A DNA stretch of 64,000 nt from NCBI RefSeq assembly GCF_023734095.1, contig NZ_AP024620.1, forward strand, positions 864,501 through 928,500, given 5' to 3'. The translations under genes were made by a program, and so were the position numbers. The notes below the pieces were generated by a model. It was given only the letters and a program-made list of their open reading frames with translations. It had not been told where the DNA came from and did not search any database. Of the stretch, positions 46,059 to 58,066 are shown piece after piece; positions within the stretch are counted from its first letter, which is position 1; every line of letters begins with the position of its first letter. Source of the stretch: Moorella sp. Hama-1. Lineage in GTDB: Bacteria; Bacillota; DSM-521; Neomoorellales; Neomoorellaceae.

Positions 46059-47078
46059 GTGGCTCGATTGGCGAAGCAAAAGGCCCTGACCGGGCTGGAG
46101 AAGGCAGCTATTTTCCTGATTACCGTCGGCCCGGAGCTGTCGTCTCTGATCCTGAAGCAGATGGGCCAGGAGGAAATTGAACGCCTTACTTATCAAATCG
46201 CCAACACGACTTCCGTTGACCCGGCGACCAAGCAACAGATCATCGATGAGTTTCTGGAGCTTAACGACGCCCAGCAGTTTATGCTCCAGGGGGGCATCAA
46301 GTACGCCCGGGAGGTTCTGGAGAAAGCCGTCGGCCCGGCCCGGGCGGCAGAGATTATCAAAAAGCTCCTGGCCACCTCCAAGATTCGTCCCTTTAACATG
46401 GTCCGCAAGGCCGACCCCAAGCAGCTGATCAACTTCATCTATAACGAGCACCCCCAGACCATCGCCCTCATCCTGGCTTACCTGGAACCGGAGCAGGCCT
46501 CGGTGATCCTGGGAGCCCTCCCCGACCAGTTGCAGGCCGATGTGGCCAAGAGAATCGCCATTATGGAGCGCACCTCGCCGGAGACGGTGCGCGAACTGGA
46601 GGGCATCCTGGAGCAGCGCCTGTCCTCGGTGGTCGACCAGGACTTCGCCGTCGCCGGCGGGGTCAAGAGTTTGGTCGACATCCTGAACCGGGCCGACCGG
46701 GGTACGGAGCGGACCATTCTAGAATCCCTGGAGCAGGACGACCCCGAACTGGCCGACGAGATTAGGAAGCGCATGTTTGTCTTTGAGGACATCCTGACCC
46801 TGGACGACAACTCCATCCGCCGCGTCCTGCGGGAGGTTGACCTTAAAGACCTGGCCCTGGCCCTCAAGGCGGCCAGTGAAGATGTGGCCAGCCGGATCTA
46901 CCGCAACCTCTCCAAGCGGGCCGGGGAAATGCTCAAAGAGGATATTGAGTACATGGGTCCGGCGCGCCTGCGGGACGTAGAAGAGGCCCAGCAGCGGATT
47001 GTCCAGATTATCCGCCGCTTAGACGAAGCCGGCGAGATTATCATCGCCCGGGGAGGCGAAGACGCCATTGTGGTGTAG
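46059..47078 (+). CDS. fliG: Flagellar motor switch protein FliG
   Basis: 339 residues from GTG 46059, two bases after the fliF stop. N domain (GLEKAAIFLITVGPELSSLI), middle domain with the EHPQTIALILAYL motif, and C domain with MFVFEDILTLDDNSIRRVLR and the charged torque helix (DLKDLALALKAASEDVASRI). FliG links MS ring and C ring and contacts the MotA stator. Complete and typical. Confidence 0.97.
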   Translation: MARLAKQKALTGLEKAAIFLITVGPELSSLILKQMGQEEIERLTYQIANTTSVDPATKQQIIDEFLELNDAQQFMLQGGIKYAREVLEKAVGPARAAEIIKKLLATSKIRPFNMVRKADPKQLINFIYNEHPQTIALILAYLEPEQASVILGALPDQLQADVAKRIAIMERTSPETVRELEGILEQRLSSVVDQDFAVAGGVKSLVDILNRADRGTERTILESLEQDDPELADEIRKRMFVFEDILTLDDNSIRRVLREVDLKDLALALKAASEDVASRIYRNLSKRAGEMLKEDIEYMGPARLRDVEEAQQRIVQIIRRLDEAGEIIIARGGEDAIVV

Positions 47079-55118: not shown

Positions 55119-55889
55119 ATGGCCGTTAAAAGATGGCAGAAGAAACCGGATGAAGGCGCCCCGACCTGGATGATCACCTACTCGGATCTCATGACCCAGC
55201 TGGTGGTTTTCTTCGTCCTGCTCTTTTCCTTCTCCATCATCAACCAGCAGAAATTCCAGCAGTTCATTGCTTCCTACCAGGGGATGGGGATCCTGGACGG
55301 GGGCGTGTCGCCCCTTGTCCAGACCGAGCCGGCCCCGAGCAGCTACCCCGAAAATATCCAGACCCCCGAGGCAGCTGCGGCCCTGGCCCGGGCCCAGGAG
55401 ATGATGCAGACCTACCAGACGGTCAAAAACTTCCTTACGGAGAACGGCCTGGAGTCCGACGTGGAGGTCCGCTACGAGGACCGGGGGATTGCCCTGGATA
55501 TTAAAGAACGCATCCTTTTTGATTCCGGCCGGGCGGATCTCAAACCAGAGGCCACCCGGTTGTTGGATAAATTAGCGGGTCTGCTGGCCCGGCTGCCCAA
55601 CGCAATCAAAGTCGAGGGTTACACCGACAACCGGCCCATCCATACCGTCCAGTTCCCCACCAACTGGGAACTGTCCACAGCCCGGGCCTCCCGGGTGGTG
55701 CGTTATTTTATCGAAGAACACCACCTGCAGCCGGAACGCTTTGTGGCCATGGGTTACGGCGAGTATCATCCCCTTTACCCTAACGACTCCCCGGAACATA
55801 TGGCGGAAAACCGGCGCGTAGTATTACTCCTGGGGATGACCAATAACCAGCAGACCAACGGGAAAGAGGTGTATAAGAGTGCCCCCTAG
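55119..55889 (+). CDS. motB: Flagellar stator protein MotB
   Basis: 256 residues. A short cytoplasmic N-tail, then a membrane helix with the proton-binding Asp23 (YSDLMTQLVVFFVLLFSFS), a plug/linker, and a C-terminal OmpA-like peptidoglycan-binding domain (VEGYTDNRPI, NWELSTARASRVVRYFIE). The helix has Asp in the MotB/PomB position; ion choice (H+ or Na+) is not readable with certainty. The stop overlaps the fliL start by 11 bp. Confidence 0.96.
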   Translation: MAVKRWQKKPDEGAPTWMITYSDLMTQLVVFFVLLFSFSIINQQKFQQFIASYQGMGILDGGVSPLVQTEPAPSSYPENIQTPEAAAALARAQEMMQTYQTVKNFLTENGLESDVEVRYEDRGIALDIKERILFDSGRADLKPEATRLLDKLAGLLARLPNAIKVEGYTDNRPIHTVQFPTNWELSTARASRVVRYFIEEHHLQPERFVAMGYGEYHPLYPNDSPEHMAENRRVVLLLGMTNNQQTNGKEVYKSAP

Positions 55890-56364
55890 AGAAGCGGCGG
55901 AAAAGACAGCAGAAAAGGTGGTGGAGAAAAAGGAAGGCCGCGGTCAGCAGTTGTTGACCATCGTGTTACTGCTGGTGGTCCTGCTCTTAAGCGGCGGTTA
56001 TGTTTATACCTTTTTCTTCAGCAACAACAGCCGCGGTATATCAGCGTCGGCGGCCAGCGCCCCGCCGGTCAACACGCAGCAGCAGAGTCTGGACAGCATC
56101 GTCGTCAACCTGGCCGATCCGGGCCTGCACCGCTACCTGCGGACTAAGATTACCCTGGAATACAACGACCCCAAGCTGGCGACGGAACTGGGCGAAAAGC
56201 TCTATCGCATCAAGGACACGGTTATCTCCGTCCTACGGAGCAAAAAGACCGACGACCTGCAGAATGAGGAAGCCTTAAAGCGGGAACTGCTGACGGCCAT
56301 CAACGCCCAGTTGACCAGCGGCCAGGTCCGGGCCCTCTACTTCGAGGAGTTCCTGGTCCAGTAA
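55879..56364 (+). CDS. fliL: Flagellar basal body-associated protein FliL
   Basis: 161 residues from GTG 55879, overlapping motB. A Lys/Glu-rich N-tail, one membrane helix (about 27-47), and a periplasm-facing-type domain with DSIVVNLADPGLHRYLRTKI and LKRELLTAINAQLTSGQVRA. FliL rings the stator and supports high torque. In most relatives fliM follows; here it does not. Confidence 0.94.
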   Translation: MPPREAAEKTAEKVVEKKEGRGQQLLTIVLLLVVLLLSGGYVYTFFFSNNSRGISASAASAPPVNTQQQSLDSIVVNLADPGLHRYLRTKITLEYNDPKLATELGEKLYRIKDTVISVLRSKKTDDLQNEEALKRELLTAINAQLTSGQVRALYFEEFLVQ

Positions 56365-56507
56365 GGGCCATCCAGGCGGCCGGCTACCGGACCGGCGGCT
56401 TGGCCGCCCTGGTTCACTGCCCGGTTAAGCTCCTGTGCGATGCGATATTGCCTGACTGGCAGAACTGGTTAACCTGGTGCGTCGATTATGCAGTAAGGAG
56501 AATATTT

Positions 56508-56894
56508 ATGGGCTTAACGGACGAGGAGATTCAAAGATTGTTGCAGGCCATGGAGGCGGGGGAGGACCGGCCGCGGGTAGAGAAGGCCCGTTTTGCCCCC
56601 CTCCAGCCGGGGCCGGTGACCGGGGCGCCGGCCAGTTTTAAGCGGATCGCTGATGTGCCCCTGCGCCTGACGGCCAACCTGGGCCGGGCCCGCCTGAAGG
56701 TCAAGGAGATCCTGGACCTGAAGGAGGGTTCCCTGATTGTCCTGGATAAGCTGGCGGGTGAACCCGTGGAGCTGCTGGTCAACGGCACCCCCATGGCGAA
56801 GGGCGAGGTCGTGGTGATTAACGAGGCCTTCGGCGTCCGGATTAACACCCTGGCCGCCGGCGAGGAAGAAGGGCAAAGCCAGGATGGATCATGA
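56508..56894 (+). CDS. fliN: FliN-type motor switch protein with FliM-like N-terminal motif
   Basis: 128 residues; ATG 56508 has AAGGAG 9 nt upstream. The C-terminal SpoA domain (VPLRLTANLGRARLKVKEIL, LDKLAGEPVELLVNGTPMAK, VVVINEAFGVRI) is FliN. The first residues MGLTDEEIQRLLQAM resemble the EID-LL peptide at the start of FliM, which in other species binds phospho-CheY. A 30-residue Pro-rich linker joins the two. The FliM core (CheC-like) domain is missing and no separate fliM precedes it; 56365-56507 holds no remnant. Confidence 0.9.
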   Translation: MGLTDEEIQRLLQAMEAGEDRPRVEKARFAPLQPGPVTGAPASFKRIADVPLRLTANLGRARLKVKEILDLKEGSLIVLDKLAGEPVELLVNGTPMAKGEVVVINEAFGVRINTLAAGEEEGQSQDGS

Positions 56895-57291
56895 TCTCCT
56901 TTGGGCCCTGGTGCGGGTAGCCATCTTCCTGCCCCTGGTCGCGCTGCTGGCCTACTTGACGGTACGCCTGGGCTTCGGTCAGGCCACGGGGCTGGCGGCA
57001 GGGTCCGGCGAATTGCGGCTGATTGAACGCCTGCAACTTAGTAACAAGTCCGGGCTGGCCGTCGTCCGCTGCGGGGAGAGGTATTTCCTGGTGGGCCTGG
57101 GGGAGGGACCGCCGGCCTTGCTGGCGGAATTGCCCGATTACCCGGCGACGGCGGCGGCCGGTGACGTCAAAGTTTTTCCCGTGCAAACCCTGGACACCCG
57201 GGGGGGAGAAGATGTTTTGGCTGAGGAGAAAGAACCTGTGCTGCGCTTATTAAAGGGTGGCTGGCAGAGGCTCAAGGGACATGACAAATAA
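56884..57291 (+). CDS. fliO: Flagellar export gate protein FliO
   Basis: 135 residues from ATG 56884, overlapping fliN by 11 bp. One N-terminal membrane helix (about 6-25), then RLIERLQLSNKSGLAVVRCG and GERYFLVGLGEGPPALLAEL, the FliO/FliZ domain that helps assemble FliP. Gene overlaps show tight coupling with fliN and fliP. Confidence 0.92.
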   Translation: MDHDLLWALVRVAIFLPLVALLAYLTVRLGFGQATGLAAGSGELRLIERLQLSNKSGLAVVRCGERYFLVGLGEGPPALLAELPDYPATAAAGDVKVFPVQTLDTRGGEDVLAEEKEPVLRLLKGGWQRLKGHDK

Positions 57292-58066
57292 AGGGCACAG
57301 ACGCTGGCAGCCCCTGGCCCCGGTAGGAGCAGCCTTGCTGCTTTTCCTGGCCTTGATGGTCCTGGGGTTAAAACCGGCCCTGGCCCAGCCGGTGCCCCTG
57401 CCCCAGGTAAACCTGAACCTGGGCCAGACCACCGACCCGCGCCAGGTAGTGGACACCGTCAGGCTCCTGGTGCTGCTGACGGTTCTGGCCCTGGCCCCGG
57501 CCCTGGTCCTGATGATGACTTCCTTCACCAGGATCATCGTGGTCCTTTCCTTTGTCCGCAGCGCCCTGGCCACCCAGCAAACACCGCCCAACCAGATCCT
57601 GATTGGCCTGGCCCTGTTCCTGACCTTCTTTATCATGACGCCGGTCTACAGCCAGGTAAAGACCCAGGCCATCGACCCCTACCTGGCCGGGCAAATCACC
57701 CAGGAACAGGCCCTGGCGGCGGGGGCCCGGCCGGTGCGGGAGTTCATATACCGCCAGACGCGGGAGAAAGACCTGGCCTTATTCGTCCATATGTCCGGTA
57801 TGGCCCAGCCCCGCACCCGGGACGACGTGCCCCTGCATGTCCTGATCCCGGCCTTTATCATCAGCGAGCTGAAGACAGCCTTCCAGATGGGCTTTTTGAT
57901 CTACATCCCGTTTCTGATTATTGACCTGGTGATCGCCAGCACCCTCATGGCCATGGGCATGTTTATGGTACCGCCGGTCATGATCTCCCTGCCCTTCAAG
58001 CTCATGCTCTTCGTCCTGGTAGACGGCTGGTACCTGGTGGTCAAGTCCCTGTTGGAGAGTTTTTAG
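57281..58066 (+). CDS. fliP: Flagellar export gate protein FliP
   Basis: 261 residues; ATG 57281 overlaps the fliO stop, with GAGG 10 nt upstream. A cleavable signal peptide (1-35, ending LKPALA) is usual for FliP. LTSFTRIIVVLSFVRSALAT-type segment (here MMTSFTRIIVVLSFVRSALA), TPPNQILIGLALFLTFFIM and PAFIISELKTAFQMGFLIYI are diagnostic. FliP forms the core of the export channel with FliQ and FliR. Confidence 0.96.
   Translation: MTNKGHRRWQPLAPVGAALLLFLALMVLGLKPALAQPVPLPQVNLNLGQTTDPRQVVDTVRLLVLLTVLALAPALVLMMTSFTRIIVVLSFVRSALATQQTPPNQILIGLALFLTFFIMTPVYSQVKTQAIDPYLAGQITQEQALAAGARPVREFIYRQTREKDLALFVHMSGMAQPRTRDDVPLHVLIPAFIISELKTAFQMGFLIYIPFLIIDLVIASTLMAMGMFMVPPVMISLPFKLMLFVLVDGWYLVVKSLLESF

Follow-up and report, generated by a model that had tools for sequence, protein, structure and literature searches.

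The short FliN protein encoded between fliL and fliO in Moorella sp. Hama-1 is, with a probability of about 0.8, the third SpoA subunit of a C ring that is both complete and enlarged, with FliG, FliM, FliY, and FliN as its components. FliM, FliY, and FliN are all encoded intact on one chromosome, as a C ring with three SpoA proteins requires. The genome is a single 3.32-Mb contig that is 99.6% complete. Bases 864501-928500 of this contig form the window, the 64-kb stretch of DNA that was analyzed.

The fliM and fliY genes outside the window

The sequence-only reading of the window reported fliM to be missing and offered two explanations. Either FliM is encoded elsewhere, or FliN has replaced it in a simplified switch. 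Within the window the absence is real: no FliM domain is present, and the short FliN stands alone between fliL and fliO. The chromosome itself has an intact fliM. The Pfam FliM model identified one full-length gene in the genome (match at 937494-938066, E 1.5e-63), and the FliMN_C model identified three SpoA proteins, the short FliN, FliM, and FliY. The coordinates of fliM and fliY on the contig are as follows.

937383-938354: fliM, intact, 323 aa, starting MADVLSQAEIDALLQAM; TIGR01397, 332.5 bits (cut-off 219.6)
938355-939644: fliY, 429 aa, starting MADFLSQEEIDALL; NF005995, 449.6 bits (cut-off 218)

These directly adjoining genes lie 16.4 kb downstream of the short fliN and 8.9 kb beyond the end of the window. 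FliY is composed of an EIDALL start, two CheC units, and a SpoA domain. FliM has a perfect EIDALL peptide of its own at the N-terminus. The downstream gene order is cheD, a cheR-like gene, cheC, cheY, fliM, and fliY, and flhF and flhG are located in the same gene cluster; cheD, cheR, flhF, and flhG were named by reading their open reading frames (ORFs).

A C ring without FliM, in which FliN has taken over CheY binding, would fit the lack of fliM in the 64-kb window and the EIDALL-like start of FliN. This explanation is almost certainly wrong. The genome search with a FliM profile, proposed by the sequence-only reading itself, found full fliM and fliY genes on the same contig whose products score far above the profile cut-offs, the result that this reading had named as its refutation, and FliM already carries the EIDALL peptide that FliN was thought to have acquired. 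Moreover, among the 170 sampled genomes of the phylum that have FliN/FliY, all but one (169) also have FliM. Of the two options, it is the encoding of FliM elsewhere that holds. Since intact FliM and FliY are present besides the short FliN, the switch is enlarged, not simplified.

The short FliN and its gene slot

The features of the slot, in window coordinates, are listed below.

46059..47078, + strand: fliG, intact (annotated by reading the ORF and its sequence, without a profile)
55879..56364, + strand: fliL, 161 aa (ORF)
56365..56507, + strand: non-coding fliL-fliN gap of 143 bases, enlarged in Moorella sp. Hama-1
56495..56500, + strand: Shine-Dalgarno-like AAGGAG, 7 bases 5' of the fliN ATG (sequence)
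56508..56894, + strand: short fliN, 128 aa, start ATG, with peptide, arm motif, and SpoA domain
56514..56543, + strand: LTDEEIQRLL, codons 3-12, degenerate EIDALL-type peptide within a helix predicted at residues 5-16
56583..56603, + strand: KARFAPL arm motif, codons 26-32, N-terminal to SpoA, conserved in 36/36 short FliN
56643..56849, + strand: SpoA (FliMN_C) domain, codons 46-114 (profile match, fold search)
56884..57291, + strand: fliO, whose start overlaps the end of fliN (ORF, fliL-fliN-fliO synteny)
57257..58066, + strand: fliP (ORF, loci of relatives)

The product of fliG is the C-ring protein bound by FliM. A fliL orthologue lies immediately 5' of the short fliN in every relative examined. 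A 164-aa fliN product beginning at an upstream TTG was considered and ruled out; the ATG at 56508 is preferred because orthologues of the family start at the equivalent of this ATG and because of the position of the Shine-Dalgarno sequence that precedes it.

The product of this gene, the third SpoA protein of the genome, is a FliN by its single C-terminal SpoA domain, which scores above the cut-off of the FliN model (TIGR02480, 90.2 bits, cut-off 84.05). PF01052 (FliMN_C/SpoA) matches residues 46-114 with 84.8 bits. Together, these matches confirm the earlier description of a FliN SpoA domain. No other Pfam match and no CheC/FliM middle domain was found in the 128 aa. An AlphaFold model built from a 52-sequence alignment has a mean pLDDT of 79, with about 87-93 in the SpoA region; the model built from 16 close sequences only has a mean of 48. 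The top Foldseek matches of the short FliN model are FliN chains of Salmonella and Thermotoga, and the SpoA domain is 46-54% identical to these FliN structures. The longest modelled FliN chain among the matches is 9n49 chain Q. The GEVVV hydrophobic patch, which bears on putative binding to FliH and FliM in the C ring, is also conserved. A protein search of genome contigs returned three loci, two from Moorella and one from a Clostridia MAG. The closest named relative is Moorella thermoacetica, at 80% identity.

The gap between fliL and fliN was measured correctly by the sequence-only reading: 56365-56507 is exactly 143 bases. Its size is specific to the Moorella sp. Hama-1 species, and the median fliL-fliN gap among 36 relatives is 12 bases, with one relative (G008) at 297. 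The gap sequence occurs once in the genome and contains a G+C-rich stem. No promoter- or terminator-like site was found in it, and its folding is not better than that of shuffled sequences (z -1.1); nothing in these analyses points to a function of the gap. The possibility that the gap is the scar of a deleted fliM was rejected because relatives share the fliL-fliN-fliO order with the 12-base median gap. The unique sequence, the lack of a regulatory match, and the lack of excess structure also oppose a fliM relic.

Distribution and layouts in the phylum

In total, 199 sampled genomes of the phylum were surveyed, and individual loci were then read. FliN/FliY-type SpoA matches are found in 170 genomes and FliM above the cut-off in 169; the sole mismatch seen between them is a fragmented assembly (G167). 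One layout is fliL-fliM-fliY-cheY-fliO-fliP, in the style of Bacillus subtilis. The other, the Moorella type, has fliL-short fliN-fliO, followed by cheC-cheY-fliM-fliY roughly 14-17 kb downstream. Both halves of the Moorella-type layout were confirmed in about 30 genomes that represent 14 families. Within the same taxonomic order, 17 genomes whose loci are intact keep fliL-short fliN-fliO, and most of the complete genomes encode exactly three SpoA proteins. The Moorella-type layout is ancient and common.

Other arrangements were also observed. Two loci (L128 and L139, in G157 and G022) have a third layout similar to that of enteric bacteria, where fliL and fliM are followed by a short FliN gene without a CheC domain; their FliN has no EIDALL-type start. 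In the same family as Moorella sp. Hama-1, one genome encodes a fourth SpoA protein of 396 aa (L056:1313-2500; G017:C1 about 1556.8-1558.0 kb). This protein has two SpoA domains near its C-terminus and reaches the cut-off of neither the FliN nor the SctQ model. It may resemble FliM/FliN or SctQ and belong to a second system. Another member of the family, with a 1.4-Mb genome, has fliM and fliY each split over two reading frames (L027; G015:C1:21127-24336), and no short fliN was found in this genome. This could reflect decay of the flagellar switch or frameshifts in the assembly.

Relationships among the SpoA proteins

A tree of 89 SpoA domains places FliM in a clade with 100/100 support. A 100/99 branch separates FliM and 35/36 short FliN from all FliY, and the FliY proteins of the Moorella-type layout form one clade (99/95). 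The tree has only 73 columns, and many of its inner forks are unsettled. As far as these domain sequences can tell, the short FliN is a lineage of its own, distinct from the FliY that accompanies it. Because of this split, it did not branch off recently from its partner FliY. The exception (L137; G189:C1:1169600-1173000) occupies a fliL-fliN-fliP slot and groups with FliY. The FliN encoded there has a long proline/alanine-rich N-terminus, and in that genome no fliM-fliY pair was found where it usually lies downstream.

The arm motif

The KARFAPL arm, located between the N-terminal peptide and the SpoA domain, is the most constrained segment of the short FliN (pN/pS 0.10). Its Phe is near-invariant over 52 sequences, and the arm aligns with VFQQL of Salmonella FliN. 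All short FliN (36/36) match the arm pattern just N-terminal to the SpoA domain, compared to 2.4 expected from shuffles. Among the FliY proteins of the classical layout, 14/15 have the arm by pattern, and the fifteenth, AAQFAPL, was recognized by eye. The same pattern is found in 0/27 FliY of the Moorella-type layout, and a slightly different pattern in 1/34, a borderline APQFETI. Thus, FliY carries the arm where it occurs without the short FliN; where both are present, the short FliN carries it. Fisher's test of this contrast gives a p of 1.6e-10, a value that overstates independence because the arm-less FliY proteins are one clade, possibly reflecting a single event. The two FliY groups may thus differ through a single loss in an ancestor. 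This reciprocal placement suggests divided labor within the ring. In Salmonella, the N-terminus of FliN is described as disordered and as dispensable for export but required for proper motor function (PMC11673145).

The N-terminal peptide

The short FliN begins with MGLTDEEIQRLLQAME, in which residues 5-16 are predicted to be helical and the hydrophobic positions L..EI..LL are present within the first 20 residues. A peptide of the form [LMI][ST]xx[EQDK]IxxPhiPhi opens the short FliN in 31/36 genomes compared. In these 31 proteins, position 1 is L, M, or I, the Ile is found in 30, and L/M and then L follow. Relative to LSQxEIDALL, Gln is replaced by Glu or Asp, Asp by Gln, Glu, or Lys, and Ala by a polar residue. 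FliM (8/8) and the partner FliY (25/26) have a nearly invariant LSQxEIDxLL that retains the Asp, which is present in only 2/31 short FliN and is Gln in Moorella sp. Hama-1. In the Moorella group, pN/pS is 0.24 for the peptide, 0.21 for the SpoA domain, and 0.53 for the linker. Judged from these alignments, the peptide is constrained toward an alternative consensus that keeps the hydrophobic residues and drops the conserved Asp. The similarity to the FliM peptide seen in the sequence-only reading is therefore real and beyond chance (31/36), though the peptide is degenerate. Likewise, its designation as a CheY-binding motif agrees with the hydrophobic positions but not with the loss of the Asp, which is retained in FliM and FliY. 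Five of the 36 short FliN, among them the two from sister family f3, are without the peptide, which is thus dispensable in some lineages.

In B. subtilis, the FliY peptide presumably lets each ring hold more CheY molecules. In the same way, the short FliN peptide could be a real second or third docking site for CheY-P. The retention of the helix hydrophobics L, I, L, and L in 31/36 genomes, the predicted helix, and the purifying selection on the peptide are consistent with this role. It is nevertheless doubtful: the Q and D of LSQxEIDALL are consistently replaced, whereas these positions are almost invariant in the FliM and FliY of those genomes. In E. coli, the equivalent of this Asp, FliM Asp12, forms the main salt bridge to Lys119 of CheY (PMC7012829). 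With the Asp lost, a full CheY site in the short FliN is disfavored. The argument is not decisive because Moorella CheY seems to have Ser at the Lys119 position and thus to be without the partner Lys. Alternatively, the peptide could descend from an ancestral EIDALL start and now be decaying, with no present function. The five orthologues that lost it would agree with such decay, as would the sporadic or degenerate EIDAL motifs described in FliN and FliY (PMC6946799). This explanation is unlikely, since a pN/pS as low as that of the SpoA domain, an Ile kept in 30/31, and a coherent alternative consensus are unlike random decay. A plausible partner of the peptide is FlhG, which in other bacteria binds either the FliM N-terminus or FliY (PMC12826062).

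A model for the C ring

In Salmonella, a FliM-FliN1 pair and a FliN2-FliN3 pair are arranged in a spiral, where one FliM is present per three non-equivalent FliN (PMC11528121). By analogy, these three FliN positions are probably shared in Moorella sp. Hama-1 by two gene products, FliY and the short FliN. FliY most likely pairs with FliM, and the short FliN would form the other pair, though this placement could be reversed. A FliM-FliY-FliN-FliY repeat, as proposed for Campylobacter jejuni, is an alternative arrangement (PMC6946799). The arm motif could contact the ring or a regulator at the FliN position. FliM and FliY, with their intact EIDALL peptides, would most likely capture CheY-P, which the CheC units of FliY together with CheC would dephosphorylate. 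The short FliN peptide most likely binds another partner, for which FlhG is a candidate, or binds CheY weakly.

A broader and tentative proposal is that the lower C ring is obligately heteromeric in a widespread group of the phylum, where two genes would encode the FliN positions that are non-equivalent in Salmonella. FliY would provide the phosphatase and a CheY peptide and would have lost the arm. The short FliN would provide the arm and a peptide that turned from CheY to a partner such as FlhG.

Comparison to known switches

Rings that contain FliM, FliY, and FliN are known from Campylobacter, Helicobacter, and Leptospira. The conserved three-SpoA switch is a variant of this known ring type. 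As in Moorella sp. Hama-1, C. jejuni and Helicobacter pylori have adjacent fliM and fliY, a short FliN encoded elsewhere, and three SpoA proteins (PMC6946799). However, the FliN and FliY of these species stem from a separate lineage, and their FliY is reported to be without phosphatase active sites (PMC6946799), whereas Moorella FliY has two CheC units. The Moorella short FliN also differs in its location between fliL and fliO and in its altered EIDALL-type peptide. The FliM and FliY switch of B. subtilis and Thermotoga shares the EIDALL starts and the CheC-type phosphatase domain in FliY. In contrast, it has no short FliN, its fliM-fliY pair is in the slot after fliL, and the arm is on FliY. 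FliN of Salmonella and E. coli is similar in length and has a SpoA domain preceded by VFQQL, which aligns with the arm. Unlike the Moorella protein, it does not start with an EIDALL-type peptide, and with no other FliN/FliY-type protein present, it occupies all three positions.

A description of a FliM, FliY, and FliN switch for this phylum was not found in the open-licence literature, and the listed papers that name Moorella together with the flagellar switch offered nothing useful. A 2020 study reports that in such bacteria the presence of FliN usually excludes that of FliY and vice versa (PMC6946799).

The claimed switch without FliM is thus removed, and a better-defined C ring with three SpoA proteins is in its place. 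The placement of the arm points to a conserved contact in a region that is mostly called disordered. Moreover, with two gene products in place of the three copies of one in Salmonella, position-specific roles of FliN would become separable by gene deletions.
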